A stretch of 64,000 nt of DNA from Nesterenkonia alkaliphila (GTDB lineage Bacteria; Actinomycetota; Actinomycetes; Actinomycetales; Micrococcaceae), in NCBI RefSeq assembly GCF_009758175.1, contig NZ_WRPM01000098.1:1-64000 (forward strand), given 5' to 3'. Below are positions 45,661-64,000 of the stretch, piece after piece. The translations under genes were made by a program, and so were the position numbers. Numbering within the stretch: position 1 is the first letter of the stretch; each line of letters begins with the position of its first letter. The notes below the pieces were generated by a model, which worked only from the letters and a program-made list of their open reading frames with translations, searched no databases and was not told where the DNA came from.

Positions 45661-46025
45661 CTGAGTCCGTCCCCGTCCTAAAGCTACGGAGCCCGCGGAG
45701 CATTTCGGCGTAGTGCCGCGTAAAAGGAACAGCGGCCGGAGCCGAAGATGCGAAGAGAGAGGGCTCCGCAGAATACGACACGCGGAGCGTCAGATTAATT
45801 TTTCTGGGGATAGAACTGTGCACAGCTGTGGAGAGGCGAGCCGGCGGCGTCGTACTTCCCCGCCCTGGTGCCGAACACACCATCCACAGCCGTTGTGCAC
45901 AGGCAGTGGATAACTACACTGGTGTGAGTACAGCATCTTGTGGCTACTGACTTAAGCCGACACAAGATGTAGTATTGAAGAGTCTTCACAGCCCCCGGAA
46001 CTACCTGAGGAAAGGAACCTTCCCC
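45661..46025 (+). other. intergenic control region before nrdHIEF
   Basis: No gene is visible in these 365 bases. The right half holds, in order, near-matches to DnaA boxes (TTGTGCACA at 45893-45901 and, inverted, AGTGGATAA at 45905-45913, complement TTATCCACT) and two NrdR-like boxes at 45930-45975. GAGGAAAGGAA just before 46026 is the nrdH ribosome site. The left half shows nothing recognisable. Confidence 0.6.
45930..45975. promoter_or_regulatory. paired NrdR-like boxes
   Basis: ACAGCATCTTGTGGCT (45930-45945) and ACACAAGATGTAGTAT (45960-45975) resemble the palindromic NrdR site, one in each orientation, with starts 30 bases apart, about three helical turns. NrdR is the dATP/ATP-responsive repressor of ribonucleotide reductase genes; paired sites at this spacing before nrd operons are its known pattern. 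Confidence 0.8.
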
Positions 46026-46277
46026 ATGAGCGTCACCGTCTACACCAAGCCCGCCTGCGTGCAGTGCAACGCCACCTACCGCGCGCTGGACAAGAACGGC
46101 GTCACCTACAAGACCGTTGATATCTCCCAGGACGCTGAGGCCCTGGAGCGGGTTCGCGCACTCGGTTACATGCAGGCCCCTGTGGTGATCACCGAATCCG
46201 ACCACTGGTCCGGATTCCGGCCCGATAAGATCTCCGAGCTCTCCGCTGCTGCAGCACCCCAGGCCGCCGCAGCCTGA
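46026..46277 (+). CDS. nrdH: glutaredoxin-like NrdH
   Basis: An 83-residue thiol electron donor for the class Ib ribonucleotide reductase. [16 protein letters not shown] holds the CxxC redox site (CVQC), and the conserved tail [12 protein letters not shown] is the NrdH family mark for use with thioredoxin reductase. AGGAAAGGAA precedes the ATG. It opens the nrdHIEF operon and lies just after the paired NrdR-like boxes. Confidence 0.97.
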
Positions 46278-46701
46278 CCACCCCTACGGGAGCCAGTATG
46301 CTCACCTCCGCCAGGCTGATCTACTTCTCCTCGGTGTCGAACAACACCCACCGGTTCGTGGAGAAGCTCGGCCTGCCCGAGGGGGAGGCGGCCAGACTGC
46401 CGGTGCACACCGGGGCTGAGACCCTGACGGCCACAGAGCCCTATGTGCTGATCCTGCCGACATACGGGGCCAATGGCGGCAGGGGATCGGTGCCCAAGCA
46501 GGTCATCAAGTTCCTCAACGTGGAGTCCAATCGGAGGCTGCTGCGAGGCGTGATCGGCGCGGGCAACACTAATTTTCACGAAAGCTACTGCATTGCCGGT
46601 GACATCGTCGCCGCCAAATGCAATGTGCCGCACCTGTACAGGTTCGAGCTGATGGGCACTCCAGAGGATGTGTCCAAAGTCCACAAGGGATTGGAAGAGT
46701 T

Positions 46702-49966
<3,265 letters not shown>

Positions 49967-50025
49967 GAGACGAGGGTTGGGCATTCTGAGTCACTGACTG
50001 ACCCAGACGCCCATCAGGGTCCTTG

Positions 50026-50066
50026 AAGGCCTGGATCTGCATGCTTCTGCAGGTCCAGGCCTTTTT
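50026..50066 (+). terminator. intrinsic terminator of nrdHIEF
   Basis: AAGGCCTGGA pairs with TCCAGGCCTT around an inner CTGCATGCTTCTGCAG, followed by TTTTT. It closes the nrd operon and is the last recognisable core-chromosome feature before the conjugative element. Confidence 0.9.
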
Positions 50067-50124
50067 CGTGTCCCCTCCCAACGAAACAGAGGAGGACCGA
50101 GATGACCATCAGAAGCCGCCCAGT

Positions 50125-50312
50125 GGGGCACGCCGAGGGCACGGGCACACCTACCAGATGGGTAAGGGAGTCTTTGCCACCCGGAATTTGGGGTCGGCAT
50201 GCCCGCGAGGTCGTGCCCCAGCGTGCCCTCCAGGGTACTCGCAAGGGCTCTGGATCCCCAGGATTACAGGGATCTTGCCGCGTGTGCTCTGCGAGGGGCA
50301 CGGAGGGGCACG
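50125..50312. repeat. three pairs of GGGGCACG-type repeats, probable integrase arm sites
   Basis: Short repeats come in pairs with starts 10-11 bases apart: GGGGCACG at 50125 and AGGGCACG at 50136; inverted CGTGCCCC at 50212 and CGTGCCCT at 50222; GGGGCACG at 50295 and again at 50305. They lie immediately before the tyrosine integrase gene, where arm-type integrase or excisionase sites are expected. An imperfect dyad GATCCC/GGGATC (50253-50274) lies between the last two pairs. The att core itself should lie to their left, between the nrdF end and 50125, but could not be pinned down. Confidence 0.6.
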
Positions 50313-50352
50313 ACGGCCCGGGACAGTCCGTACGAGGTCACCGGAGGGTACG

Positions 50353-51678
50353 ATGAGCACCACCACGAAGAAGCAGACACCTGCCACCCGACGTGAGTCC
50401 TGGGGGAGACTGCGCAAGCTCCCCTCCGGCCGTTGGCAGGCCCGCTATCCGGCCCCGGATGGGCAGATGTACCCGGCTCGGACCGAGGACGATAAGCCGC
50501 TGACGTTTCTGACCAAGACCGATGCCCGCACGTGGTTGGCCGGGATGCATACCAAAATCGCCCGGGAGGACTGGGCGCCCCCAGCCGTGGTGGCAGCTCG
50601 CCGTCGTGCCGAGGCAGAAGCCGAGAAAGCACAGGCCCTGGGGTTCGCCGAGTATTCGGAACGGTGGATGGAGATGATCCGCACACGGCCAGGTCGTAGC
50701 GGCAAGAAGCGCGCCCCAGCGACTATTCGGGACTATCAGGGCAAGGTCACCGGGTATCTGGTGCCTGAGTTCGGTGACACTCCGGTGCGGGATATCGATG
50801 AAGCTCGGATACAGGTGATGACTGAGCGGTTGGATAAGATCCCTTCGCCGTTGAATCCGAACTCGAAATTCAACGGGGTCACCAGGCCGGTGCTGATCGT
50901 GTTGATGATGATTCTTCGGCAAGCAGCCAGAGACGGGATCATTCGGGTAGTACCGAACGTCTCAGTTCCCAAGCAGGAACCAGTCCGCCATGACATCGAC
51001 CACTCCCCGGAGGAGGACGTGGCCACCCCCGAGCAGGTCGAAGGCCTCTACGAGGAATTGCCCGATCTCTACAGCATTATGGCGCTGCTTGCTGCCTGGT
51101 GTCAGTTACGTCGCGGGGAGGGCCTTGGGCTTCAGCGCCGGGATATCCAATGGCAGCGTGACGGCAGCGCGATTCTTCACGTGCGGCGGCAGCTGAACGC
51201 GAACACCGGTGACTACACCGATCCCAAGAGTGAGGCCGGCAAACGCTCACTCAGTATCCCGAAGATCATGATCGACCGGCTGAGAAAGCACATGGAGGAC
51301 AACGTCGCATCCGAGGCTAAGGCCCCAGTCGTTCCGACCAACGTTCAAGGAAGTGTGCCCTTGTCCAATACACGATGGGGATACGTATGGGCCGAGGCCC
51401 GAGACGCGGTGAAGAGCCTGCCTAACTACTTCCGTTTCCATGATCTGCGGCATACCGGCTTGACCATCTTCGCCCAGGAAGGAGCAACACTGGCCGAGTT
51501 GATGCGTCGTGGCGGACACTCAGATATTCGTGTGGTGATCCGCTACCAGCACGCCACCATGACCAGAGATAGGGAGCTCGCTGACCGGATGAGTGATCAC
51601 GTCGCCGCCAGTATCGCCGCGGCCAAGAAGAAGAAGGAAGAAGCAGAGACGTCTTCGGACAGCCCAGGACACCTATGA
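50353..51678 (+). CDS. int: tyrosine-type site-specific integrase
   Basis: A 441-residue phage/ICE integrase. The N-terminal arm-binding region has the AP2-like WGRLRKLPSGRWQARYPAPDG; a SAM-like core-binding domain follows (residues 100-215); the catalytic domain has Arg in QLRRGEGLGL near residue 253, HDLRHTG near 362, GGHSDI near 389 and the tyrosine nucleophile in IRYQHATMTRDRELA near 398. All active-site residues are present, so it should work. ATG 50353 follows CGGAGGG; the long open frame before it is not coding. It sits at the left end of the conjugative element and reads inward, with a small excisionase behind it. Confidence 0.96.
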   Translation: MSTTTKKQTPATRRESWGRLRKLPSGRWQARYPAPDGQMYPARTEDDKPLTFLTKTDARTWLAGMHTKIAREDWAPPAVVAARRRAEAEAEKAQALGFAEYSERWMEMIRTRPGRSGKKRAPATIRDYQGKVTGYLVPEFGDTPVRDIDEARIQVMTERLDKIPSPLNPNSKFNGVTRPVLIVLMMILRQAARDGIIRVVPNVSVPKQEPVRHDIDHSPEEDVATPEQVEGLYEELPDLYSIMALLAAWCQLRRGEGLGLQRRDIQWQRDGSAILHVRRQLNANTGDYTDPKSEAGKRSLSIPKIMIDRLRKHMEDNVASEAKAPVVPTNVQGSVPLSNTRWGYVWAEARDAVKSLPNYFRFHDLRHTGLTIFAQEGATLAELMRRGGHSDIRVVIRYQHATMTRDRELADRMSDHVAASIAAAKKKKEEAETSSDSPGHL

Positions 51679-51709
51679 GGTGAAGCAACAACTAAAAGGA
51701 GGTACTGCC

Positions 51710-51910
51710 ATGGTTCAACACGAGACCACCCCGGGACCGAGGCTGGTGTCACTGGCCGAGGCCGCAGAGCAGTTTGGAGTCTCGGTTAAGACACTCCGGC
51801 GACGAATCGCTGACGGGACCGTTCACGGATACCGCGTCGGACGGCTCATCCGAGTCGACCTGGACGAACTCCATGAGCGATTGCTCGTTGAGATCCCTTC
51901 GGTGAGGTAG
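51710..51910 (+). CDS. xis: excisionase-like HTH protein
   Basis: A 66-residue winged-helix DNA-binding protein of the excisionase/MerR-like type: LVSLAEAAEQFGVSVKTLRR then IADGTVHGYRVGRLIRVDLDEL. It likely directs the integrase to excise the element. AAAGGAGG lies seven bases before the ATG, the best ribosome site in this region, and it begins 31 bases after int. A strong terminator follows, so int and xis form a unit. Confidence 0.92.
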   Translation: MVQHETTPGPRLVSLAEAAEQFGVSVKTLRRRIADGTVHGYRVGRLIRVDLDELHERLLVEIPSVR

Positions 51911-51919
51911 TCGACACCC

Positions 51920-51963
51920 ACACGAAGGGGGACGCACCCATGGGGGCGCGTCCCCCTTCGTGT
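51920..51963 (+). terminator. strong terminator after xis
   Basis: ACACGAAGGGGGACGC pairs perfectly with GCGTCCCCCTTCGTGT around ACCCATGGGGGC. The stem is 16 bases. A long T-run is lacking, but the symmetry suggests it stops transcription from both sides. Confidence 0.85.
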
Positions 51964-52069
51964 CTAGGCACCGCCGCCGTCGTCCTTCCCCTGATCAACA
52001 TGGCAGGCTAACGAGCCGTCCTCGCCCCTTGTGATCTGCGAACGAGACGATCCGCTATGCCCTCGTGAC

Positions 52070-52405
52070 CTATGCCGTTGCCGGTTGCACGGATTCTCTG
52101 CGATCGTTCCGAGTGAGACGGATTCGAATAAGGTACACGACACTGATGGGCCCCATAATCAGGAACTTGAACGCTGACCAGAGGCAGGCCAGGACGATGA
52201 GGTGGAGCCAGCCAGGGGCGCCGGCGTCGATCAAAGTGGTGCACCAGTAGGCAACGGCGAAGTATGGGATGGCCAGGCCCATGGCGGGGATGCCCCATTT
52301 GAGGCCCTGACGGGTGCGGATGCGATCGAGGATGATGTTGCTGGGCATCCATGCGCGAAGAAACACGCCGGTGTGAATGCTGGCGATCCAGATGAGACGA
52401 AGCAT
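52070..52405 (-). CDS. small membrane protein (annotated elsewhere as sulfate permease-like)
   Basis: A 111-residue protein with an N-terminal MLRLIWIASIHTGVFLRAWM and two strong hydrophobic helices (WGIPAMGLAIPYFAVAY and WLHLIVLACLWSAFKFLIMG), plus a basic tail. Proteins of this pattern occur in actinobacterial conjugative elements and are often loosely named sulfate permease; they are far too short for a transporter of that class, so I treat the function as unknown. ATG 52405 is chosen because GGGAGGA lies just before it. It is convergent with xis, separated by the terminator. Confidence 0.75.
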   Translation of the reverse strand: MLRLIWIASIHTGVFLRAWMPSNIILDRIRTRQGLKWGIPAMGLAIPYFAVAYWCTTLIDAGAPGWLHLIVLACLWSAFKFLIMGPISVVYLIRIRLTRNDRRESVQPATA

Positions 52406-52633
52406 GACGGAGTCCTCCCTTACGGACGGCGACGTCACGTAGGAATGGACTCACCCGGCCTGTTGTCCCCGGGGTCGTCAACCACCAGCCTGAAGCTAGC
52501 AGCGCAGCTAATAGGGTATCGCCGTAGCTCTGAGTCTACGTGGCCTTACGGTCTCATGTGAAGAGCTCCGGAGGGCCCGGTCCTATGCGGTTGGTTTGGT
52601 GTGCACCTGTGCCGTGAAGGGAGGGCACCGGTC

Positions 52634-53362
52634 ATGGCAGAAGTCTATGGACAGTTGGCGTTCGACTTTGATGAGTTAGCCCGGGAGGAAGCCCGCGCGC
52701 AGGTCGATCAATGGCGGGACGCACCACTGCACTTCACCAGCGAGTATTACTCTCCACACGAGTTGGAGGAAGCGTTCGCGCACTGGACGTTTCTCAACGG
52801 GAACTTCGACTCCTATCGACGTAGCCATATGTGGCATCGTGGGATCGCCCATGAGCAACAGACTGTGCTGGGCGATCATAGTGGGGAGATGTTCAGCGCT
52901 GATCTCAGGTCAGACCGTGGTCACCTGGGCCCGGGGGAGCTGCTGGCGCAGATGATTTGCGAACCCTGCGACTGGCACGTGATCACCGCTGACGAGAACG
53001 CTGCGGTGGAGGCGTGGCACGATCATGCTCTGCCGGGCTGGCGAGCGCTGCCGGTAGTGCCTGCACAGATTAAAGTCCGTCATGAGTCAGGCCTGACCAC
53101 GGTCGCGAAGACGTGGATCGCCGAACGCTACCCAGCCGATATGCAGGTCCACGGGGCCCCGATCATCACTGAACGCAGCCCCGTGGGCACCCGCCATGTG
53201 CCAAGCTATTCACCGTGGGGCGGCTATGACCTCTCCTCGACAGCTCTCGATACACCAGCCGCACCACGAGGCTCCTCCAGAACAGTCCGCCGTGAGCTCC
53301 CCGATTTCGCTGGACCGCGGCCCTGTGTGACGTCCGATAGGGGTCGTGGTCTTGGTGACTGA
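52634..53362 (+). CDS. DUF6349-like ICE protein
   Basis: A 242-residue cytoplasmic protein rich in Trp and His: FAHWTFLNGNFDSYRRSHMW, EPCDWHVITADENAAVEAWH and GWRALPVVPA are the strongest conserved-looking segments. This set resembles proteins I know as the DUF6349 family of actinobacterial mobile elements. The C-terminal 50 residues (from SPWGGYD) are disordered in character. No catalytic motif is recognisable. GGAGGG precedes ATG 52634 by about nine bases. It is convergent with the DUF4913-like gene, separated by a hairpin. Confidence 0.72.
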   Translation: MAEVYGQLAFDFDELAREEARAQVDQWRDAPLHFTSEYYSPHELEEAFAHWTFLNGNFDSYRRSHMWHRGIAHEQQTVLGDHSGEMFSADLRSDRGHLGPGELLAQMICEPCDWHVITADENAAVEAWHDHALPGWRALPVVPAQIKVRHESGLTTVAKTWIAERYPADMQVHGAPIITERSPVGTRHVPSYSPWGGYDLSSTALDTPAAPRGSSRTVRRELPDFAGPRPCVTSDRGRGLGD

Positions 53363-53376
53363 CGGGCACCGACGTG

Positions 53377-53417
53377 GGGGAGGGTTGCAGCAACGTCGTT
53401 ATGCTGCGACCCTCCCC
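53377..53417. terminator. hairpin between convergent element genes
   Basis: GGGGAGGGT TGCAGCA pairs with TGCTGCG ACCCTCCCC around ACGTCGTTA (one mismatch). There is no T-run; its position between convergent stops supports a two-way terminator. Confidence 0.6.
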
Positions 53418-53431
53418 GTGGATGTGTGTGG

Positions 53432-54049
53432 TTAGGTGACTTCTCCGGTTTGTGGGTTGAGACTGGCGTAGAACTCGTCTTCTTTGGCTTTGCGGCGGGC
53501 CACATCGTCGAGGACGAACTCCACGAAGTCCTCATCCCGGTTCTCGATCGGGGCTTCTTCGACCGCATCGGCGGGATCTTCCCCCGGCCAGGCGGTTTGC
53601 CGGGTGGGCCGGTCCCGGTCCAGCCGTGTCCCCGAGGCTTGGACCCAATCGCGCAGGCGTTGGCGTGCTTCGGCGAAGTCTCGGTGCCAGCCAATGGGCG
53701 CGGACCCGTTTTGTTCAGGGTCGTAGGCACAGAGCCAGTGGGTGTGCAGGGCGGAGAGTTCCCACACCAGTTCCGAGTGTCGATGCCACATCGGAGGGAT
53801 GACACTGACAGGCAGCCCGTAGGTCTGCCGGAGCCAGTTCACCCACGCGTTGAGCTCCAGCCACTGCAGCTCTGCCTGCTCGGAGGAGAGCAGGTTCCAA
53901 TTGATCGGCCCGGGCGGCTCATCCAAGGCCGGTCCCGTCCCAGCCGCACCGGGAGGTGACTCTGTGCTGGCAGGGTCCTCTGGTTCGGGCTCGTCGATCT
54001 GGGGTGGATCTTCTGGGCCGGGGGTGAGATCCTCGTCGTCTTCGCTCAT
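53432..54049 (-). CDS. DUF4913-like protein
   Basis: A 205-residue protein with an acidic, Pro-rich N-terminal tail (residues 1-50) and a helical core: LELNAWVNWLRQTYGLPVS, IPPMWHRHSELVWELSALHT and GWHRDFAEARQRLRDWV. This W-rich core matches the DUF4913 domain found in Actinobacteria conjugative elements; its function is unknown. It is the last gene of the leftward transfer run and begins 13 bases after the end of ssb. ATG 54049 is preferred to the longer frame that overlaps ssb. Confidence 0.75.
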   Translation of the reverse strand: MSEDDEDLTPGPEDPPQIDEPEPEDPASTESPPGAAGTGPALDEPPGPINWNLLSSEQAELQWLELNAWVNWLRQTYGLPVSVIPPMWHRHSELVWELSALHTHWLCAYDPEQNGSAPIGWHRDFAEARQRLRDWVQASGTRLDRDRPTRQTAWPGEDPADAVEEAPIENRDEDFVEFVLDDVARRKAKEDEFYASLNPQTGEVT

Positions 54050-54062
54050 GGTGATGGTCTCC

Positions 54063-54542
54063 TCACTGGCCCATTGCCGCGTGCTGAGGTGGCTGCTGGG
54101 CCGGCCGCTGCGGTGGTTCGAACGCCTGGTTCTGCGTGCGGCTCTGATCCACACTGACCGGCTGCTGGCCCACCGCCTCCTGCTGGGGCGTGCGATCAAC
54201 ACTCACTCTGCTGCGGGCAGCGTCGGGGCCGATCTTCTTGGCGACGAATTCTTCACCGCCGCGCTGCTGGCCCTCTTTTTCATAGGCGTACTCGCGCACA
54301 TACCCGTCAGCGACGAAGGGATCGCCCTTCTCGAAAAGATCAGCTGCTCGTTCAGCGGTCTTGCGATAGACCACCAGGTTGTGGAACGAGGGCTCCAGCT
54401 GGGTGAAGGAGCCGTCGTCCTCGCGGCGGTAGTGTTCGATGCCCATCCGGGCGTAGAGCCGGGCCACCCCCTGTTGCCCATAGGTCAGTTGTGGATCGGT
54501 GGCGATGAAGCCTGATACTGACTGACCGGTCTTGATAGCCAT
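54063..54542 (-). CDS. ssb: single-stranded DNA-binding protein
   Basis: A 159-residue OB-fold protein: SVSGFIATDPQLTYGQQGVARLYARMGIEHYR is long first strand, FHNLVVYRKTAERAADLFEKGDPF and VADGYVREYAYEKEG form the rest. A Gln/Pro-rich flexible tail follows, without the acidic DDDIPF tip used by cellular SSB to recruit partners. This suits an element-encoded SSB that protects the transferred strand. The ribosome site GGAGGAGGAAGG is strong. It lies between the giant methylase-helicase and the DUF4913-like gene. Confidence 0.88.
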   Translation of the reverse strand: MAIKTGQSVSGFIATDPQLTYGQQGVARLYARMGIEHYRREDDGSFTQLEPSFHNLVVYRKTAERAADLFEKGDPFVADGYVREYAYEKEGQQRGGEEFVAKKIGPDAARSRVSVDRTPQQEAVGQQPVSVDQSRTQNQAFEPPQRPAQQPPQHAAMGQ

Positions 54543-54665
54543 GGCCCTTCCTCCTCCTCGTGTGTTCAGTCCAATGGCGACCTGTGGTGATCGCTCCTAT
54601 GAGGAAGGTGCGCATCCCCGGACACCTCAGGACCCGGTGGTCACGGGCCGGTATGACGAGAAGGC

Positions 54666-57600
54666 TCAGAGGCCGGGAGCGGGGCGGCCCGCGCCTGAGG
54701 CAGGGGAGTACTGTTGAGCAGGCTGTGGTGGTGTGCGCTCAGCGCTGGGGCTTACCCCCATGGCCGGTTCGTGTCCTCGCACCGCCGCCACATCCAGGTC
54801 CTGTCCCGGACGGGCACTGTCTTGTTCGCCCTCGGGCGTGGTCTCGTCCTGGCCGCCGATGGCTGCCTCGACCTCAGCGAGATCGCGCTCGGCAGTGGCC
54901 AGTGCCTCGGTGTGCTTGAAGGGTTTGCCGATCCGGGCGGTGGCATCAGCCAGAGTCTGTTCGGCCCCGGCCAGCTCGGTCCGGGCCTTCTCCAGTGTGG
55001 TCTCGGTGCCAGCCAGTCGGTTCTCGAGGCGCTGGATAAGCCCCACACCGCCTTCCAGCACAGCGGAGGACTCGACGGTGAAGCTGCTACGGGGCAGGCC
55101 GTGCAGTCCCAGGGTGACGGCGGGTCGTCCTCCCATTTGTGGGTGCGTTTCCACGGTGATGTCGAAGCCGCTGATGGAGCCAAGGGTGCCGTATTCGCGG
55201 CTTCGGTGAGTGGGCGCATACTGGATACCGGCCCGCTGGGCCCAGGTAGCGACGGCCTGTCCGGCATCGGCGCGTGAGTCGACGCTTCTCCCGTCGATGG
55301 TGATGGTGAAGTTCTCCCCGGAGGTATCGGTGATCCGAGGCAGCGCGGCTTCGAGTCCGGCAATGTCCTCCGTGTACCGGTCGATGTCTCGGGTGGTGCT
55401 CTCGCGGGTGTGGGTGAGCATCGACTCGTTCCGCGAGTGGGCTCGCTCCAGTCGTCGCAGGCGGGTGACCTCGTTCTGCAGGGTGGATTGCTCCAGCAGC
55501 AGGGGGTTGCCGGAGCTGATGGCTTTGGCTTCGGCGGCTGAGAGGGCGGCGGAGTCGATTTCTTCGACCTCGCGGGTATCCAGGGATCCGCGCATCAGTT
55601 GGCTGATGAACCGGGCTTTGCGCTCGACTCCTTGCCACATGTAGGAATCAAAGGACCGTTCGGTCACCAGCCGGACGATTCCGACCTCGGAGTTCTGGTT
55701 GCCCTGGCGCAGGATCCGGCCCTCGCGCTGAGCGATGTCCGAGGGTCGCCACGGACAATCCAAGTGATAGAGAGCCACCGCGCGTGCTTGCACGTTTGTG
55801 CCCACACCCATTTTCTCGGTCGAACCGATCAGGACCGAGATGTGCCCTGCACGGGCGGCGGCGAAGAGCCGTGCTTTGTCGGCATCGGTCTTGGCTTCGT
55901 GCATGAACCGGATGGACTCACCGGGGATGCCCCGCAGAATCAGCTGACTGGCCAGCTCGTCGTAGGCGTTCCATCGGGTCGGGTTGGGGGTGCCGATATC
56001 GGAGAAGACCAGCTGCAATCCCCCACGGACCGGGCTAGGCTCTCCGGTGATGGAGTCGAGGTACTCGTTGTCTTTGTTCTGTTCCCATACCCGGTGAATG
56101 GCATCAGCGGCGACATCGACTTTGCTCGGCCCCGAGGGGCCGTCCTCACCGACCAGGCGCACATCCAGGGCGGCTTTGCGGCCATCGGTGGTGATGGTGA
56201 GCATATTGTCCTCACTGGGGTCCACCGCCTTGGCTGCGACCCGCTCTGCCCGCTCACCGAGCTGGTCAACGAAGTCCTCCAGCTCGACGGTGGGCTGGAC
56301 GACCGTGGTTTCTGCTACCCGGGCACCATCCGAGCGGGCTACGATCTGTGGGACCGGTAGGTTGAGGTCTTCAGCAGTTTGCACATCGGCGAAGACCGAC
56401 CACATGCGCAGCATCTCGGGCACATTGGTGAACCGGGCGAACCGGGTCTTCATCCGGAATCCGGACCCTGTCGGCGACATCTCCATCTGCGTCAGGGTCT
56501 GGCCGAAGGTCGCCGCCCACGCATCAAAGGACTCCAGCCCCGCGTCCCGCAGCAAGTCTGGTCGCAGATACTTCTGCATCACGTAGGCCTCGGTGACCGA
56601 GTTCGAGATCGGGGTGGCGGTCATCCCGGTGACCACTCTCTCGCGGTCTTGAGAGCGGAGGTAGTCCAGCTTCATATCCAGATCCGAGGCCCGGGAAGAG
56701 CCCTCGATGGCGGCATCGCGGATATTGGAGTCGGTGGAGAGGTTCTTATACATGTGCATCTCATCGACGACCAGGTAGTCGATACCGGTGTCTTCGAAGC
56801 ACACGCCGGCGTCCCTGCCGGTATCCAGGCGGTCTTTGAGTTTGTTCTCCAGGTTCGCCAGCTTGCGCTGCAGGCGTTTGACGGTCATGAAGTCGTCTGT
56901 CTCCGCGGTGGAGACCACCTTCCGCAGCTCATCGACCTGGGCTTGGATGTAGGCCTGCTGTGTCTCTTCTTGGAGGGGGACTTTCGAAAACGCCGATTGG
57001 GTCATCACCAGGGCATCCCAGTCATTGGCTGCCGCGCGGGCGACGAACTGGCGGCGCTGATCAGCGGTGACGTCCTTGGAGGAGGCTGCCAGGATGCGTG
57101 CCTGCGGGTAGATTTGCAGCCATTCCCGGGAGAACTGCTCCAACATGTGGTTCGGGACCACCACCAGGGGCTTGGAGATCAGGCCCATCCGGCGCATCTC
57201 CATCACGCCCATGATCGACTCGGCGGTCTTGCCCGCCCCGACTTCGTGGAACAAGCCGGCTGCCGGTTCGCTGACCATCCGTGCCACCGCCGCCCGCTGA
57301 TGCGGCCTGGGGGTGAACGTCGCCGAGAGTCCGGGCAGGGTCAAAAAGTCCCCGGCGCTGGTGTAGTCGCGTAAGACCAGGTTGTTGAACGTGTGGTTGT
57401 AGGTATCGACCAGGGACTTCGACCGGGCAGGATCTTCCCACACCCACTCGGCGAATCGCTCCTGCAATGCGGTGGCCTTCTCCTGGGCGGCCGTGGTCTC
57501 AGTGGGGTTGAGGATCTGCTGAGGCCTGCCGTCGGGACCGTCGATCTTGTCATAGACCAGCAGGGTGCGCTGTTCCATCACCGCCTGGGCGATATCCGGT

Positions 57601-60521
57601 GCCGGTCGGCGTTCGGTGCCCCACTCACTGGTCGATAGCAGACCAGCACGACCGCCGCGGACCTCCCACATTCCCGAGGTGGGGTTCTCCACCCGCACAT
57701 CTGGGGTGCGCAGGGTCTCCTGAAGGAACTGCTGATGGATCTCTGGGCTGATCCAGACCGCACCTAAGCGCGCGCTGATCTCCTCGATGCCGAGATCCTC
57801 AGGCTGGACCCGGGTGAGTGCCTCGACATTGACCTGAAAGGAGGGGTCCTGTTCGGCTCGGTCTTTGGCTGCGGCGAGTTTTTCGCGGACGTTACCGGAG
57901 AGGTATTGCGGGGCATGCACCAGATCCCCGGTTGCCGGATCGGTGTAGGCCAGGTCCGCCAAGGAACTGCGGGCTTCGGCTTCATCGGTGCCCAGCAGAT
58001 CAGCGATGATGGGCAGGTCAATACCGCCGGTGCGGTCCAAGCTGACCGCGACCGCATCGGTCGGTGTCTCCACACCTTGGACCTCGGCTCGTGGGGCGAC
58101 GACTCGCTGGCTGAGCATCGCGGCCGGGCTGGCGGTCTGCTCGGCGTCGTCGAAGACCTCCAAGGCCAGGACCAGGGCGCCGAAAGGATCCCCACGCAAC
58201 AGGCGGATCGGGGTGGGCACGATCCGGGCGTAGGTGTCCTTCCCTGTTTCGTTTTGTCGGCCGGTGCGTCGGAGGCTGTAGCGGTTCAACGGCCCATAGG
58301 TGCCCAGATACTTCTGGTATTGCCGGCGCAGATCCTCACGGGTCTCGGTGATCTCCTCGGTGTCGTCGGCGGTGGCCGCTTCCAACTCGAGCAGCCCGGC
58401 GGCGGTATCGCGCAGCTTCAGCAGAGCCTGCATCTCGCGGGTCGCGTTCTTGGGCACTTTTAGCGGTTCCACGGAGGCTCCGACGACTGTGCCGAACTGC
58501 CCGGCCTCGGTGTTCACGATGGACCCATCCCACTGCTGTGGTGCCGACCCGGTGGTCGCCACGACGCGCTGCGGGGTAGGGTCAGTGCGCTCGGTCATCA
58601 CCTGACCTGCCCGGCGGGCTGTGAATGCGAGTCCCTCCAGCACCGTGTGCAGACGGTCAGGCAGATCATCGATCTCACCGGTGACAGTCAGGGTCTCGGC
58701 CCCGTACATCCCATGTCCGGTCTCCAGGTTGCCGAGCACATGGTCGGGGTGCTCATCGAAGTACCGGTTGATCTTCACCCGGGTCCCGTCCAGGGTGATC
58801 GGGGTGACCGTTTCCCACAGGTCATCGGCCGGCGGCTCGCCCTCAGCGCGGCGGCGGAAGATCAACAGATCGGTGATCGCCTCTGTGCCCGCGGTGCGTC
58901 GGTGTGCCCCGGTGGGCAGACGCACCGCTCCGACCAGGTCAGCCAGCAGGTTCATCTCCCGCCTGGCCCCGGGGTTTTGGGCATCGAGGGTGTAGTGGGA
59001 ACTCAGGGCTGCCACCAGCCCTCCGGGCCGGGTCAGGTGCAGGGATTTGAGCAGCACATGATTGTGGATGCTGTGCTTATTCGGGTTGTGCACCGGGTCA
59101 TAGAGGCTGATCTTGCCGAAGGGCACATTGCCGATTGTCATATCGAAGCTGGACTCCGGGACGCGGAAGTCGGCGAAGGAGGCGGCGTGGATCTGCGCGT
59201 GTGGGTAGAGGCCCTGGCTAATTGCGGCCGTGACCGGGTCCAGCTCCACCCCTGTCATCTGCGCCTGAGGCGGTGCCAGGCCCAGGAAGGTGCCGGACCC
59301 GCTGCCGGGTTCGAGTACCTGGCCACCGGTGAACCCCAGCGATCGGGTGGCCTGCCAGATCTCTGCGGCGATGCGAGGATCCGTGTAGTGAGCGTTCAAG
59401 GTGGTGCGTTCAGCGGCCTGGAACTCTTCCTCGCTGAGCAGGCCCTGTAGCTGGGTTTTTTCGGCCTCCCATTGGTCTTTGCGGGGATCGAAGACCTCCG
59501 GGATGGCACCCCAGGACGACCACCGGGCCAGCACCTGCTGTTCTTCGACGGTGGCTGGCCGCTGCTGGTCTTTGAGGCTGCGCACCAGGCCGATGGCGTC
59601 GATATTGGCCTGGAACCGGGCCCTCGCCCCGCTGGGCACCCCAGGATGGGCGGTGGGATCGAACCGTGGCGCATCCGGGGCGGCAGATCCCTCGGGATCG
59701 CTCTCAGGTGGTTCGTGGTCCTCGGAGGTGGTTAGCGGATTTCGCGCTGGAACCGCTGATTCGCTGCCTCGGTCAGCACCTGCTGGTGCTCCCGGGCGTA
59801 CTGGGCCGGGATCTCCGCGGCCAGCAGGCCCTCGAGGAACCAGAGCGGCACCGCCCAGTCCATCGCCTTCTGCTCCAGCTCCACGGTCGAATGCACCGGG
59901 TAGGGGGAGTCCTGGATCCCCTCGGCCCAGCGAATCAGATTCTCGTCGGCCGCCCGGGTCTCCTCCCACTCCTGGCGTGCCTCGGGAAGAGACAGGCTCG
60001 GGTCGCGAATCCACACCATCTGGTTCATCACGACCTCCTCGGCGATCCGGCGGGCCGTCATCTTCGAGGCCACCTGGTCTACGTAGCTGCCCCCATTGTC
60101 TCCCAAAGAGCCCGCCGTCTCCACCCTCAGGGAGGGGCTGGTCTCCAGCTGGGCGGTCAACTCGCTGATTTGAGTCGCGATTTCCGCGCCCATCTCGGTG
60201 AAGAACCTCTCCGAATCCTCGATCGCTTCCAGCTGCTGCGGGGCGTGCTGGGCCCAGTGGTTCTGCGCGGTCCTGCCGTAGTGATTCACCAGAGGTCTCT
60301 CCTTCCAGATCAGACCCACCTCGCTGCGGGATTGCCACGTCCGGGCCAGGTACGTCCGCTTCCGACGGGTCAGGTTCGGCGAGCCCTGCTTGCGTGGGCT
60401 CGGTTGCGGCCTCATTGGGGGTATTGCGTTCGGTTTCGGCTTCGGCGTCGGTCTCAGAGAGACCCCACAGGTCGAACTCCAGCTGGCCAGGTACGGCGGC
60501 CTGTCTGCGGCGGCGTGCCAT
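54666..60521 (-). CDS. N6-adenine methylase / SNF2-type helicase fusion (DarB-like)
   Basis: A giant protein, 1951 residues from ATG 60521 (MARRRRQAAVPGQLEFDLWG). Residues ~330-560 are an adenine-methylase-type Rossmann domain: GGQVLEPGSGSGTFLGLAPP binds SAM and TIGNVPFGKI near 464 stands where methylases have (N/D)PP(Y/F). Residues ~1060-1640 are a superfamily 2 helicase: GAGKT near 1095, VVDEMHMYKNL near 1252, GMTATPISNS near 1300 and REGRILRQGNQN near 1598. A coiled coil closes it (1640-1830). Such fusions on phages and conjugative elements are named N12-class methylases or DarB-like antirestriction proteins. Residues ~80-265 lie over another protein-like frame (59732-60289) and are Gly/Pro/Arg-rich with weak coding character, so the exact N-terminus is unsure. 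Confidence 0.85.
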   Translation of the reverse strand: MARRRRQAAVPGQLEFDLWGLSETDAEAETERNTPNEAATEPTQAGLAEPDPSEADVPGPDVAIPQRGGSDLEGETSGESLRQDRAEPLGPARPAAAGSDRGFGEVLHRDGRGNRDSNQRVDRPAGDQPLPEGGDGGLFGRQWGQLRRPGGLEDDGPPDRRGGRDEPDGVDSRPEPVSSRGTPGVGGDPGGRRESDSLGRGDPGLPLPGAFDRGAGAEGDGLGGAALVPRGPAGRGDPGPVRPGAPAGADRGSESAVPARNPLTTSEDHEPPESDPEGSAAPDAPRFDPTAHPGVPSGARARFQANIDAIGLVRSLKDQQRPATVEEQQVLARWSSWGAIPEVFDPRKDQWEAEKTQLQGLLSEEEFQAAERTTLNAHYTDPRIAAEIWQATRSLGFTGGQVLEPGSGSGTFLGLAPPQAQMTGVELDPVTAAISQGLYPHAQIHAASFADFRVPESSFDMTIGNVPFGKISLYDPVHNPNKHSIHNHVLLKSLHLTRPGGLVAALSSHYTLDAQNPGARREMNLLADLVGAVRLPTGAHRRTAGTEAITDLLIFRRRAEGEPPADDLWETVTPITLDGTRVKINRYFDEHPDHVLGNLETGHGMYGAETLTVTGEIDDLPDRLHTVLEGLAFTARRAGQVMTERTDPTPQRVVATTGSAPQQWDGSIVNTEAGQFGTVVGASVEPLKVPKNATREMQALLKLRDTAAGLLELEAATADDTEEITETREDLRRQYQKYLGTYGPLNRYSLRRTGRQNETGKDTYARIVPTPIRLLRGDPFGALVLALEVFDDAEQTASPAAMLSQRVVAPRAEVQGVETPTDAVAVSLDRTGGIDLPIIADLLGTDEAEARSSLADLAYTDPATGDLVHAPQYLSGNVREKLAAAKDRAEQDPSFQVNVEALTRVQPEDLGIEEISARLGAVWISPEIHQQFLQETLRTPDVRVENPTSGMWEVRGGRAGLLSTSEWGTERRPAPDIAQAVMEQRTLLVYDKIDGPDGRPQQILNPTETTAAQEKATALQERFAEWVWEDPARSKSLVDTYNHTFNNLVLRDYTSAGDFLTLPGLSATFTPRPHQRAAVARMVSEPAAGLFHEVGAGKTAESIMGVMEMRRMGLISKPLVVVPNHMLEQFSREWLQIYPQARILAASSKDVTADQRRQFVARAAANDWDALVMTQSAFSKVPLQEETQQAYIQAQVDELRKVVSTAETDDFMTVKRLQRKLANLENKLKDRLDTGRDAGVCFEDTGIDYLVVDEMHMYKNLSTDSNIRDAAIEGSSRASDLDMKLDYLRSQDRERVVTGMTATPISNSVTEAYVMQKYLRPDLLRDAGLESFDAWAATFGQTLTQMEMSPTGSGFRMKTRFARFTNVPEMLRMWSVFADVQTAEDLNLPVPQIVARSDGARVAETTVVQPTVELEDFVDQLGERAERVAAKAVDPSEDNMLTITTDGRKAALDVRLVGEDGPSGPSKVDVAADAIHRVWEQNKDNEYLDSITGEPSPVRGGLQLVFSDIGTPNPTRWNAYDELASQLILRGIPGESIRFMHEAKTDADKARLFAAARAGHISVLIGSTEKMGVGTNVQARAVALYHLDCPWRPSDIAQREGRILRQGNQNSEVGIVRLVTERSFDSYMWQGVERKARFISQLMRGSLDTREVEEIDSAALSAAEAKAISSGNPLLLEQSTLQNEVTRLRRLERAHSRNESMLTHTRESTTRDIDRYTEDIAGLEAALPRITDTSGENFTITIDGRSVDSRADAGQAVATWAQRAGIQYAPTHRSREYGTLGSISGFDITVETHPQMGGRPAVTLGLHGLPRSSFTVESSAVLEGGVGLIQRLENRLAGTETTLEKARTELAGAEQTLADATARIGKPFKHTEALATAERDLAEVEAAIGGQDETTPEGEQDSARPGQDLDVAAVRGHEPAMGVSPSAERTPPQPAQQYSPASGAGRPAPGL
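59732..60289 (-). CDS. overprinted TnpV-like protein inside the methylase-helicase frame
   Basis: A 185-residue reading frame, in a different frame on the same strand as the giant gene. GTG 60289 follows GAAGGAG at nine bases. The sequence is balanced and protein-like: NHYGRTAQNHWAQHAPQQLE, FFTEMGAEIATQISELTAQLE, SYVDQVASKMTARRIAEEV and WAVPLWFLEGLLAAE. The HYGRTAxxHW...FF..xGxxI..QI..L pattern recalls small proteins called TnpV on actinobacterial and Firmicute elements. Third codon positions are strongly G/C here, while the giant frame over the same bases gives low-complexity Gly/Pro/Arg. I think this frame is the real one for this stretch. Whether both are translated is open. Confidence 0.65.
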   Translation of the reverse strand: MNHYGRTAQNHWAQHAPQQLEAIEDSERFFTEMGAEIATQISELTAQLETSPSLRVETAGSLGDNGGSYVDQVASKMTARRIAEEVVMNQMVWIRDPSLSLPEARQEWEETRAADENLIRWAEGIQDSPYPVHSTVELEQKAMDWAVPLWFLEGLLAAEIPAQYAREHQQVLTEAANQRFQREIR

Positions 60522-60588
60522 CACCCCCACCCCCACATCTCACGAACGGGCGCGGGGGAGCAGGGGCGTGTAGGTACTGGGTGTGGGG

Positions 60589-62367
60589 TCATGGGCTCTC
60601 TCGCAGCAAGTCTTCGACACCCGAACGGGCCTCCTTCAGCTCGGCGGCGTCCCGGCGTGTCGTCCAGGCCTTCAGATCGGTGACGATCGGCGGTGCTGCC
60701 CGCAGCAAGGTAATCCCCGTGCCAAAGGGCAGGGTGCGGATCTTCTCCGGTGGGAACACTGCGACCCGGCGCACCGAGCGTTGGGAGGACCGTGACCCGT
60801 AGTCGCTGATAGTGATCGAGTCGGTTTCCTCGTCACGTTCTCCGATCAGCGCCGAGAGGTCCTGGAGGTCTCTGGAGTTCGAGCCGCCACCGAGGATGAT
60901 CTTGACGATGCTCGCGTCCCAGATGGCATTGGCCTGGTTCTCATTCCACTTATCCCTGGCCTGGGCCATCGACTGCAACACCGGCATGCTGGTGATCCCG
61001 CTACCGCCACCTTCAGCCATCAACGTCGGCAACGAGGGCAACGGCGCGAGGTTGCCGATCTCATCCAGAGCCAGCAACACCGGTGGGTCCAGACGAGCGC
61101 CGGGGGAGCGGGCCGCGATCCGGCGAGCGGTCTCGATGAGGTCCTCGACGAACGCAGCGACCAGGGCCGCGGAGGCTCCGGCACCGGCACCGGTGGCCAG
61201 CAGGTAGAGGGTCCCCGAGCCGGTGAGAAACTCCTCGGGGTCGAAGGACTCACCAGGGCCAGGGCTGACCGCATCCAACACCCTCGGGTCAGCCAGTGCG
61301 GACAGGGCCAGGCTCACACCCTGCCAGATCGAATCCCGGGTCCGCGGGTCCGAGTCGATCATCGCCGCCAGCGAGTCTGCCCACCCGCCAGCGGCCTGGG
61401 TGGAGTTGGTCAGAATCGCCACCGCATCAGCGGCCGCCGAGGGGTCCAGCGTCCACCGATAGAGCTCAGAAGGCGGACGCCCATCCAAGGCCGCGGCATG
61501 TAACAATGCTTGCAAGGCCGTGCGGGTCTTGCCCTCCCAGAACCCACCGGAATCCACCCCACCGGAGCCCAGGCCGGTGGAGGCGGCCAGCCCGGCCGCC
61601 CGGATCATCGCGGTCAAGGGGTCTTCGCAGCCGCGGATCGGGGACCAGCGCAGCCCCGAGGGCAGCCCCTGGGCTAAGTGCTGGGGATCGAAGATCGCCA
61701 CCGGCCCGTGCTTTTCGCGGGCTCGCAGGGTCGCGGTGACGTTATCCGGGCGGGTGCTGGTGGTCACCACGGCACCGGGGGCATCGAGGATCGCCGGGAT
61801 CACCAGATGCAGGCCCTTACCCGAGCGCGGTGGGCCCACAATCAGGATCGAATCCTCCACTGAGGCCCAGACCTCATGGCCCCGCGAGTGACCCAGGCGG
61901 TAGCCCACCTCCTCGGCCGAGGGGGCCTCAAGGGAGGGCCGCAGGGTCTCGGCCCGAGACAGCAGAGCCTTACCCGAAGCGGTGGTAGCGACCTCGTGCT
62001 TGGTGGCAGCCCCGGGAGTGCGCCGGGGATCGGACTCGGTTGCCTCGCTGTGTCGGCGCAGACGCCGCCACACCCAGACCCCGGCCCAGGCCAAACCGGC
62101 CAGCAACAAGCCGGTGACCAGCCAATACAGGATCGGATTCAATCCGGCAGATTCCAACGCCTGTCCGGGGTCCGCGGGGTTGAACAGAACCCCGATGCCT
62201 GCCCCCAGCCCTGCCTGGGGCTGGGATGTTCCGGAGAAGAAGGCCGCGATCGAGCCGCTGGCCCGCAGGATCAGGGTGAACCCGAAGAGGCCGATGAGCC
62301 CGAGCATCGCCGCATTGGTCAGCTCATCACCGAACGATCCGGTCTGCCGATTGGCCGGGCTGCTCAT
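60589..62367 (-). CDS. type IV coupling protein (TraG/VirD4-like)
   Basis: The ATPase that links the DNA-protein complex to the conjugation channel. The 592-residue protein has N-terminal hydrophobic helices (AAMLGLIGLFGFTLILRASG and ILYWLVTGLLLAGLAWAG), Walker A GPPRSGKG near residue 180, Walker B VLLALDEIGNLAPLP near 434, and a TraG/VirD4 C-terminal part (LQSMAQARDKWNENQANAIW, IILGGGSNSRDLQDLSALIGE). The methylase-helicase gene begins about 70 bases after it. Its ATG overlaps the stop of the gene before it (ATGA), so that gene is coupled to it. No relaxase or VirB4 is seen before the window ends. Confidence 0.92.
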   Translation of the reverse strand: MSSPANRQTGSFGDELTNAAMLGLIGLFGFTLILRASGSIAAFFSGTSQPQAGLGAGIGVLFNPADPGQALESAGLNPILYWLVTGLLLAGLAWAGVWVWRRLRRHSEATESDPRRTPGAATKHEVATTASGKALLSRAETLRPSLEAPSAEEVGYRLGHSRGHEVWASVEDSILIVGPPRSGKGLHLVIPAILDAPGAVVTTSTRPDNVTATLRAREKHGPVAIFDPQHLAQGLPSGLRWSPIRGCEDPLTAMIRAAGLAASTGLGSGGVDSGGFWEGKTRTALQALLHAAALDGRPPSELYRWTLDPSAAADAVAILTNSTQAAGGWADSLAAMIDSDPRTRDSIWQGVSLALSALADPRVLDAVSPGPGESFDPEEFLTGSGTLYLLATGAGAGASAALVAAFVEDLIETARRIAARSPGARLDPPVLLALDEIGNLAPLPSLPTLMAEGGGSGITSMPVLQSMAQARDKWNENQANAIWDASIVKIILGGGSNSRDLQDLSALIGERDEETDSITISDYGSRSSQRSVRRVAVFPPEKIRTLPFGTGITLLRAAPPIVTDLKAWTTRRDAAELKEARSGVEDLLRESP

Positions 62368-62951
62368 ACAAGCCCCCGCAGCTCGACTCGACCGGAGGCT
62401 CGCCCGTAGAGAAGAACGATCTCTGCGACCTTGATGCGGCCTTTGGGCACAGTGATCTCGGCCGTGCCGTCCTCATCAGCGGCAGCTTCGCTGGCCACGA
62501 CCGCCACGGCCACGCTCTCTCCAGGGGCGAAACCCGCAGCCTGAATCGTGGGGGGCTTCTTTGAGGGTTTCGACTTCTCACCGGCAGGCTTCGAACGGTC
62601 TGTCGTCTCGAGGGAACGAGGAGGCGTGCGCCGGGGTGCTGCCTGGATGATGTCGGTGAAGGTGGTGCCATCGGTCTCAGAAATCTCCACCCGCACTGTG
62701 CGCGAACGGTCCTCGGTGACCGCATCCAGCAGGCCCCCCAGGTCTGCCCTGACCCATGACGTTTTGCCTTCTGGGGGCGGATACTCCTCCCCGTCCACGG
62801 TGACCCGTAGTCGCCCGCGGTCTTCGACGATGATCCGGGCATACGGCAGCGTCACCGGAGCCTCAACCGGGACGCCACCAGCGGTGGCATCGTTTGAGAG
62901 GGCGTTTTCGCTGGCGTGACTGTGCGCAGTGGAGTGTGTGGAGCGGCTCAT
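62364..62951 (-). CDS. hypothetical conjugative-element protein
   Basis: A 195-residue protein without a family I can name. The N-terminus is Ser/His-rich. LPYARIIVEDRGRLRVTVDG and TSWVRADLGGLLDAVTEDR form a compact beta-rich start, RTVRVEISETDGTTFTDI follows, then a Pro/Lys/Ser linker. The end AEIVLLYGRASGRVELRGL looks like a second small beta domain. The first gene of the leftward transfer run, it overlaps the coupling-protein start by four bases, which ties it to DNA transfer. GTG 62966 is another possible start. Confidence 0.65.
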   Translation of the reverse strand: MSRSTHSTAHSHASENALSNDATAGGVPVEAPVTLPYARIIVEDRGRLRVTVDGEEYPPPEGKTSWVRADLGGLLDAVTEDRSRTVRVEISETDGTTFTDIIQAAPRRTPPRSLETTDRSKPAGEKSKPSKKPPTIQAAGFAPGESVAVAVVASEAAADEDGTAEITVPKGRIKVAEIVLLYGRASGRVELRGLV

Positions 62952-63061
62952 GCCGGACAGGTGCACATCAGCACTACTCGCGGTTCACGTGAGCTCTCCG
63001 TTCGGCCTCGAACTGCGGTGCGAGGACGCGTCAGGGGTGCCCGTTAGGCTGCAAACATGAG

Positions 63062-63079
63062 CCTGATCAACCGATCAGG
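63062..63079. promoter_or_regulatory. palindromic operator candidate in the divergent element promoter region
   Basis: CCTGATC and GATCAGG flank AACC. It lies about 20 bases past TTAGGCT (63044-63050), a likely -10 box, in the 155-base region between divergent genes. A repressor site here could govern both the transfer run and the gene to the right. Confidence 0.45.
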
Positions 63080-63106
63080 GGAGGCTGGCTTCAATGGGGA
63101 GGGCCG

Positions 63107-63897
63107 ATGCTGACCGCACTACTTGACGGAACACAGGAATGGGAAGCTCGCCAGGTGGCACGGCTTCCCGATGATCGGGTCGATGCACTCCGTGCGCGAT
63201 GGATCTGCATCGGGTGTAAGAACAAGGCCTACTATGCGAGCCGAAGTCGTAATGGCAGGCCACCCTTGTTCGGTTCGCACTATCGTTCCGAGGATTGCCC
63301 GGAACAAACCAAGAGCGGCACAACCGAAGAGGCAGGATGGGAGACTGAGGTCGAGCTCATTGCTAATGACGCGTCCCGATTGATTCTGCGTTTGGATCGT
63401 CCCGAGGAGCAGAGAACCCAACGCCGGGTCCGCGCCGGAGCAAACGATGAGGTCGCTCGACGCCACACCGCCACCGGATCAGGGCAGTCACGTCAGGACC
63501 AGAGCCACAGGCTTGCACCTCTCTTGGACCGTCTGCGCCGTGATCCAGGTTTCCGTGAGGACACTCGCCCTTTCCGCCTCGGTGGTGGCACCTGGACCAC
63601 TGTTCGTGAGGTCTGCATTCACGCCGGTGAGTTCACCGAGGACGACCTGTACCAGCAGGTCATTGTCTGGGGGACGGCAACTGGCTCAACTCCGGGCCCA
63701 TGCGCCGCCAGATGCCCTCAATTCGACTCTCCGATAGGAATCTCAGCACTGTTCTGGACAAAGCCAAAGTCGAAGATGCCGAAGACCTTGCCCAATGGTC
63801 GTTCATCGTGGTCGGCGCCTTCGAACCCAACAGGCACGGCACCCCCTATGTGAAACCCCGGGCCTACGAAGTGGCGTTCCTGACGCCACGAGGATGA
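63107..63897 (+). pseudogene. conserved-looking element gene with a G-run frameshift
   Basis: The first frame (63107 to about 63670) reads WICIGCKNKAYYASRSRNGR, PPLFGSHYRSEDCPEQT (a zinc-type Cys/His cluster) and VELIANDASRLILRLDRPEEQ. It continues to GTWTTVREVCIHAGEF and DDLYQQVIVWG. Near the G5 run at 63669-63673 the sense moves one frame: with one more G it would read WGDGNWLNSGPMRRQMPS, then VLDKAKVEDAEDLAQWSFIV and the natural stop at 63897. So a single base lost from a G6 run broke it, or the base was lost in sequencing. No function is known to me. GGGGAGGG precedes the start. Confidence 0.65.
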
Positions 63898-64000
63898 CCC
63901 CACGGTGTGAGGACCCGGAGACGGTGGTTCGGCAGGTCTCGGCTATCCGTGCTGCCCGTGGCGAAATGCATTGATGATCGTGCCCGCCGGGTGCGGACTA

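Follow-up and report, generated by a model that had tools for sequence, protein, structure and literature searches.

A TnpV-like gene nested in the reading frame of a DarB-like methylase-helicase in mobile elements of Actinomycetota and Bacillota

Within a stretch of 64,000 nucleotides from Nesterenkonia alkaliphila (contig NZ_WRPM01000098.1, positions 1 to 64,000; here called the window), a small TnpV-like gene is encoded wholly inside the open reading frame (ORF) of a DarB-like DNA methylase/SWI2-SNF2 helicase, which we refer to as the giant. The two genes are read from the same strand in different frames, and the giant frame is open across all of the overlapped bases (Table 1). The arrangement recurs in dozens of relatives, and the nesting is common to Actinomycetota and Bacillota. 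From the comparison of these sequences, we consider it very probable that both frames are coding and represent an old nested pair of two genuine genes. A first-pass annotation of the window had noticed that the same bases are open in two minus-strand frames and that the inner frame has a ribosome site and is rich in G and C at third codon positions. All of this was borne out, with the Shine-Dalgarno sequence listed in Table 1 and a third-position G+C content across the overlap of 0.89 in the inner frame versus 0.42 in the giant frame. The 185 codons of the inner ORF specify the protein VNHYGRTAQNHW...QREIR*, that is, VNHYGRTAQNHWAQHAPQQ...RFQREIR.

Table 1. Positions of the nested pair, its parts and neighbouring genes in the window
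Feature	Position	Strand	Remarks
Nested TnpV-like gene	59732..60289	-	185 amino acids; GTG start; +1 relative to the giant frame
Shine-Dalgarno sequence AAGGAG of the nested gene	60299..60304	-	Read from the sequence; 9 nucleotides 5' of the GTG
DarB-like DNA methylase/SWI2-SNF2 helicase (giant), full-length frame	54666..60521	-	ATG at 60521, stop at 54666; 1951 amino acids
Giant N-terminal segment outside the overlap	60290..60521	-	Basic tail, motif, acidic stretch
Giant residues 13-20, QLEFDLWG	60462..60485	-	Recurring short motif; putatively sliding-clamp-motif-like
Giant residues 78-264, encoded over the nested gene	59732..60290	-	Gly/Pro/Arg-rich; no confident predicted structure
Conserved methylase region	58950..59648	-	Source of profile A2
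VirD4/TraG-type coupling protein	60589..62367	-	Directly upstream; gap of 67 nucleotides to the giant start
Single-strand binding protein	54063..54542	-	Downstream of the giant
Tyrosine integrase	50023..51678	+	Possibly of the same integrated element as the nested pair

In a Pfam scan, the giant matched SNF2-rel_dom and Helicase_C above the cut-off and Methyltransf_25 below it, and the part following the overlap matched phrog_10089 (DarB-like antirestriction) with 1374 bits. An N6-type methylase, albeit below the Pfam cut-off, and a SWI2/SNF2 helicase are hence found within one protein, and the giant is of the same kind as the DarB-like methylase-helicase dyad of polyvalent proteins (PMC5512222). 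A search of the main text of that paper for TnpV and for the term 'overlapping' returned neither. Relatives of the inner protein share 57, 61 and 59% identity with it. The protein itself gave no match to PF14198 (TnpV) in a Pfam scan, and the label TnpV-like, already used in the first-pass annotation, is correct in another sense: PF14198 is matched by 5 of the 11 members of the inner-protein alignment A1 (best E 2e-5), and an hhalign comparison of A1 with A5, an alignment of canonical TnpV proteins, gave 94.9% probability and E 4e-8 over 83 columns. Judged by these profiles, the window protein belongs with TnpV. Structures predicted for three sequences suggest that the inner protein is all-helical, with moderate confidence over the first 50 residues. 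The TnpV model, which has a mean predicted local distance difference test score of 57, retrieved no relative with Foldseek (best E 4.2), and the best match in a profile search of the PDB had an E of 0.076.

The same genome contains a further, diverged element that also has the nested pair (contig C8, G000:C8:80801-81349; inner protein 57% identical). Microbacterium lacticum (L006) and a Brevibacterium species (L007) carry close relatives of the pair. Each of these three loci encodes a peptide like MARRRR..PPGQLEFDLWGL upstream of the inner gene, and the frame is stop-free from there through the inner gene into the helicase. Used as a search profile, A1 matched in 16 of 396 genomes of the order, 14 of 394 of the class and 12 of 57 of one genus, sets that share some genomes. 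Together, genomes and plasmid records yielded 42 distinct TnpV-like ORFs at E <= 1e-3, the window's included; this search considered the inner frame alone, and the giant frame was stop-free within the inner gene in all 42. Two weak matches, L003 and L004 (E 6.6e-4 and 9.4e-4), were not recovered by the profile and are excluded from this count. A survey starting from the helicase, using methylase profile A2 at E 1e-20, matched in 14 of 248 genomes of the order and 5 of 246 of the phylum, and a nested TnpV-like ORF was present in 16 of the 19 loci, many of them already among the earlier ones. Among plasmid loci chosen for variety, 14 of 16 have an ORF nested in the corresponding frame, one (L091) is cut by the record end and one from Acetobacter (L092) is without it; the inner ORFs of L083, L084 and L090 do not match the TnpV profile. 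The methylase region was found in 1,221 of 72,556 plasmid records, a number that refers to the methylase and not to records carrying the nested gene. No match was obtained in a scan of the viral_contigs collection with A1, in the phages collection with the Microbacterium inner protein, or in the plasmids with the L076 inner protein. One locus, L045, has two successive TnpV-like ORFs (888-1208 and 1501-1770) upstream of one helicase, both stop-free in the giant-type frame.

In Bacillota, the nested gene is a canonical TnpV, as seen in Cohnella, Virgibacillus, Monoglobus, Subdoligranulum, Enterococcus wangshanyuanii and E. faecalis, and the same holds for L098, a contig from a viral collection with no stated host. 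The nested genes matched to PF14198 include those of Cohnella (1e-30), Virgibacillus (2e-21), E. wangshanyuanii (5e-15) and E. faecalis (5e-7), and the cut-off was exceeded in L088, L089, L094, L098 and L102; the methylase profile matches the giant in the six Bacillota loci and L098, and also in L076 and L103. A Cohnella-like TnpV occurs in 30 plasmid records, five of which were read: four are nested and one, from Pusillibacter (L096), is not. Four contigs of the viral collection were inspected. L098 is nested, L099 and L100 have stops in the giant frame, and L101, which has no methylase match and is open only to its cut end, was excluded from the nested count. The TnpV genes of L096, L099 and L100 have 4, 9 and 7 stops in the giant-type frame, and the stretches fetched around them contain no methylase match; we used only these observed counts, as the expected ones rest on 2-15 codons of usage. 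The TnpV protein itself therefore does not force the frame open. By eye, the TnpV genes that have no methylase-helicase are close to ORFs resembling type I restriction-modification subunits in L099 (5992-6339 and 6953-8584) and L100 (2441-2887 and 3438-4964). Plasmids of Pseudomonas putida (L090) and Campylobacter jejuni (L103) also have a nested ORF at the same place and in the same frame. Neither inner gene matches PF14198 or the TnpV profile; the two proteins are 38% identical over 71 residues, and their kinship to TnpV is unproven. Using tblastn, relatives of the inner protein were found in 49 Pseudomonadota plasmid records and in 212 of Campylobacter/Helicobacter, with the frames read in one record each; the laboratory strain P. 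putida DOT-T1E has such a relative at 91%. In 17 of the 25 Campylobacter/Helicobacter plasmid rows shown, the sole named feature is 'SNF2-related protein' or 'N-6 DNA methylase'.

Both frames have recognizable beginnings. A start codon is found at the expected place of the inner gene in 59 of 62 rows, and, by a lenient criterion, a four-base piece of a Shine-Dalgarno sequence precedes it in 55 of 59. The window giant begins MARRRR..GQLEFDLWG upstream of the inner gene and in the helicase frame, and many actinobacterial giants likewise start in that frame with a short basic tail and a motif of the QLEFDLWG, QLSLESLW, QVDLFEYLF or QPDLFSLF type. A loose clamp-like pattern fits 43 of 53 giant N-termini versus 2% of shuffled peptides; it was written after the sequences had been seen. 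The motif resembles the consensus for binding to the sliding clamp, QLxLF (PMC4549789), which few of the N-termini fit strictly, and its partner is possibly the sliding clamp. In the Bacillota giants, the N-terminal region ahead of the overlap is longer, and a Pfam scan of six such N-termini for an ArdC domain gave one match below the cut-off (ArdC-N in L097) and none in the other five. A DUF6349 protein in the window (52601-53362, plus strand) opens with a similar motif (MAEVYGQLAFDFDE), and a sequence like this one is found in L007 near 15582 (minus strand); the motif may be shared among several proteins of these elements.

The openness of the giant frame was assessed by redrawing the synonymous codons of each inner protein from the helicase codon use of its own locus. 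Giant codons begin at base 3 of the inner codons, so that a stop in the giant frame requires a T at the third position of an inner codon. For the window, 3.9 stops were expected and none was seen (P of none 0.011). Across 40 simulated loci, 114.8 giant-frame stops were expected and none was found; the single-locus probabilities multiply to about 10^-55.6, a figure that is too extreme given the relatedness of the loci. In the third frame of the same 40 loci, 225 stops occur versus 165 expected, and the corresponding frame was stop-free in 34 of 173 equal-length control windows inside the helicase. A further 21 loci gave 123.3 expected stops and again none; in this set, the start of L102 (TTG) is probably placed too far upstream, and L079, L080 and L085 were begun one codon late. 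AT-rich loci are the most informative, with 16.0 stops expected for C. jejuni (27% GC), 14.3 for Virgibacillus (33% GC) and 11.4 for E. wangshanyuanii (34% GC); E. faecalis (14.2, start uncertain) and Monoglobus (9.9) are likewise free of stops. The count of 6.5 expected for L041 is inflated by the odd codon use of its helicase frame (third-position G+C 0.58), and L011 and the second L045 copy, both stop-free, were excluded from the simulation as they offer too little helicase sequence. When the whole giant was shuffled synonymously, none of 1000 shuffles each for C. jejuni and Virgibacillus reproduced an open stretch of the length observed, and the P values were 0.014 for Monoglobus, 0.03 for E. 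wangshanyuanii and 0.042 for E. faecalis. Constraint on the inner frame was compared at fourfold-degenerate sites in 29 chosen pairs from 20 loci: corrected for base composition, the mean kappa is 0.33 in the inner gene versus 0.19 in the helicase, and the inner value is higher in 22 of 29 pairs. We also considered the inner frame as a non-coding shadow, which we reject in view of its homologues, its own Shine-Dalgarno sequence and the Pfam TnpV matches in Bacillota.

Several observations weigh against two coding frames. In GC-rich loci, the open frame alone is weak evidence: the P of none is 0.1-0.5 in many, and several are uninformative singly, such as Amycolatopsis and Streptomyces L086 with 0.9 expected stops each. 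The loci are not independent, and some in both simulated sets are close relatives. The whole-giant shuffle is not significant for Subdoligranulum (0.072), L098 (0.14) and Cohnella (0.37). The excess at fourfold sites is modest and the compared pairs share members, and in most pairs the inner protein is better conserved than the overlapped residues of the giant. The clamp-like pattern is post hoc and absent from 10 of the 53 giant N-termini. The start of the window giant lacks a canonical Shine-Dalgarno sequence, and a six-base one (AAGGAG or AGGAGG) precedes the giant start in only 9 of 61 rows, counted with a script that favoured starts having such a site. Lastly, the helicase relatives L069-L071 (3 of the 19 A2 loci) and L092 are without a nested TnpV. 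One of these, L069, has a different open frame of 257 codons in the same relative frame, giant+1, at 361-1132 from the start of the giant open frame.

Taking two coding frames as given, we propose that both proteins would be made from one mRNA. Translation from the upstream ATG would yield the giant, and initiation in the +1 frame at the internal Shine-Dalgarno sequence would yield a small, predicted helical TnpV-like protein. The overlapped part of the giant is, as far as the structure models indicate, probably a disordered linker under low constraint, which in many actinobacterial elements would join the short N-terminal motif to the enzyme. The analogy with DarB (PMC5512222) suggests that the giant may protect or process the incoming, transferred DNA, and TnpV might be a small co-expressed accessory whose own ribosome site sets its amount relative to the giant. 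The nesting may be kept as a tether, for coupled synthesis, or both. We lean towards the broader interpretation that the tnpV-in-DarB-like pair is ancient and present on a very large number of conjugative plasmids and integrated elements, in two phyla at least and perhaps in four, that it was overlooked because gene callers either truncate the helicase or leave out the inner gene, and that the nesting is functional, coupling the synthesis of both proteins and placing a tether over an older gene. A rival explanation that is compatible with two coding frames holds that the giant frame is kept open so that ribosomes started upstream occlude or couple TnpV synthesis, with the linker residues themselves being idle. 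The weak conservation of the linker, its lack of a confident predicted structure and the position of the inner Shine-Dalgarno sequence inside the giant frame would all fit such regulatory read-through; on the other hand, the recurring N-terminal motif could matter only if it were attached to the enzyme, and we regard an idle linker as rather unlikely.

Alternatively, the helicase might start at about 59731 or later, as the first-pass annotation had also suggested, so that the two genes stand in tandem and the opening upstream is a by-product of GC-rich codon use. Many annotations read the locus in this way: among 25 annotated nested plasmid records, 13 show the inner gene and a helicase starting past its end, two have helicase starts inside the inner gene (L010, L081), one has the inner gene and a fragmented helicase (L014), six have the giant without the inner gene and in three only the inner gene appears in the displayed stretch. 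None of the 25 annotates the two genes in full; these counts were taken from the PLSDB gene table, which is incomplete, and the original records may hold more. The position of the giant codons relative to the inner ones and the GC-rich loci that are open with a P of 0.1-0.5 are further points in favour of tandem genes. However, this explanation leaves unexplained the start MARRRR..QLxFDLW in the helicase frame, which recurs as a peptide among relatives, and the missing stops (0 seen versus about 115 and about 123 expected). Moreover, loci at 27-38% GC are open as well, and TnpV genes away from the methylase-helicase are closed in the giant-type frame. We therefore consider a late helicase start very improbable.

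Programmed frameshifting, by which a +1 or -1 shift would fuse the upstream peptide to TnpV or TnpV to the helicase, seems to us slightly less probable still. In its favour, the frames differ by one and the segments lie end to end, but it leaves the openness of the giant frame through the whole inner gene unexplained, and the inner start has its own start codon and Shine-Dalgarno piece in nearly all rows; no search aimed at slippery sites was made. A recent frameshift or assembly error in the window, favoured only by the first impression of two half-real frames, is refuted by the same nesting in the diverged second copy of this genome, in Microbacterium and in Brevibacterium. The suggestion of the first-pass annotation that a shift of one or two bases had fused separate genes is not supported, since the arrangement recurs in dozens of relatives.

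The first-pass annotation had further raised the idea of an overprinted gene. The absence of stops and the relatives argue for two real overlapping genes, and the direction of overprinting is probably the reverse of that proposed. As TnpV also exists without an adjoining methylase-helicase, the inner gene is probably older, and the linker of the giant is more likely the later, overprinted part. We speculate that tnpV came to lie between an upstream N-terminal segment and the methylase-helicase, which would then have been fused via read-through of tnpV in another frame. In Streptococcus suis, snf2 genes harbour insertions of TnpV-bearing elements about 11-13 kb long (PMC9815147). This resembles the present case in that TnpV lies within the span of the snf2 gene of a conjugative element; in S. 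suis, however, snf2 is interrupted by the elements, whereas the snf2-type frame described here is unbroken and continues through tnpV. By analogy, such insertions may hint at how tnpV arrived. TnpV proteins of Tn4451-type mobilisable transposons (PF14198) belong to the same family as the nested genes of Bacillota, to which the actinobacterial family can be aligned. Those tnpV genes do not lie inside another gene, and they encode 112-117 residues, compared with 185 and no direct Pfam match for the window protein. A role of the Tn4451 TnpV in excision has been postulated (PMC3158075).

Nested genes known from bacteria include Rz1 inside Rz, comS inside srfA and rpmH inside rnpA of Thermus. The present pair resembles these in the complete nesting on the same strand, the use of another frame and the internal start, but it involves other genes and is found on plasmids and integrated elements from at least two phyla. 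To our knowledge, bacteria rarely maintain fully nested genes over long evolutionary periods. An overprinted orphan gene of E. coli, which encodes a second protein in an alternative frame, has been presented as recent (PMC4683798), whereas the tnpV nesting recurs across phyla. Titles and the openings of abstracts contained no description of a tnpV/methylase-helicase nesting, in a search that had one badly posed query and left subscription journals and preprints outside its scope. Should both proteins be produced, the helicase start would be misplaced or a gene overlooked in the annotations of many conjugative plasmids, and a motif that recurs at the N-terminus of an antirestriction-like enzyme would so far have stayed hidden. 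The nesting recurs within the protein family that the methylase search found in 1,221 plasmid records, and a pair with a probably older inner gene and an overprinted outer linker would be a simple system in which to test why genes stay nested.

The genes flanking the pair in the window are listed in Table 1, and a search of positions 45000-64000 for tRNA genes found none. In the Microbacterium relative (L006, 11200-14245), the helicase frame ends early and is followed by two transposase-like ORFs, and the helicase is probably interrupted.

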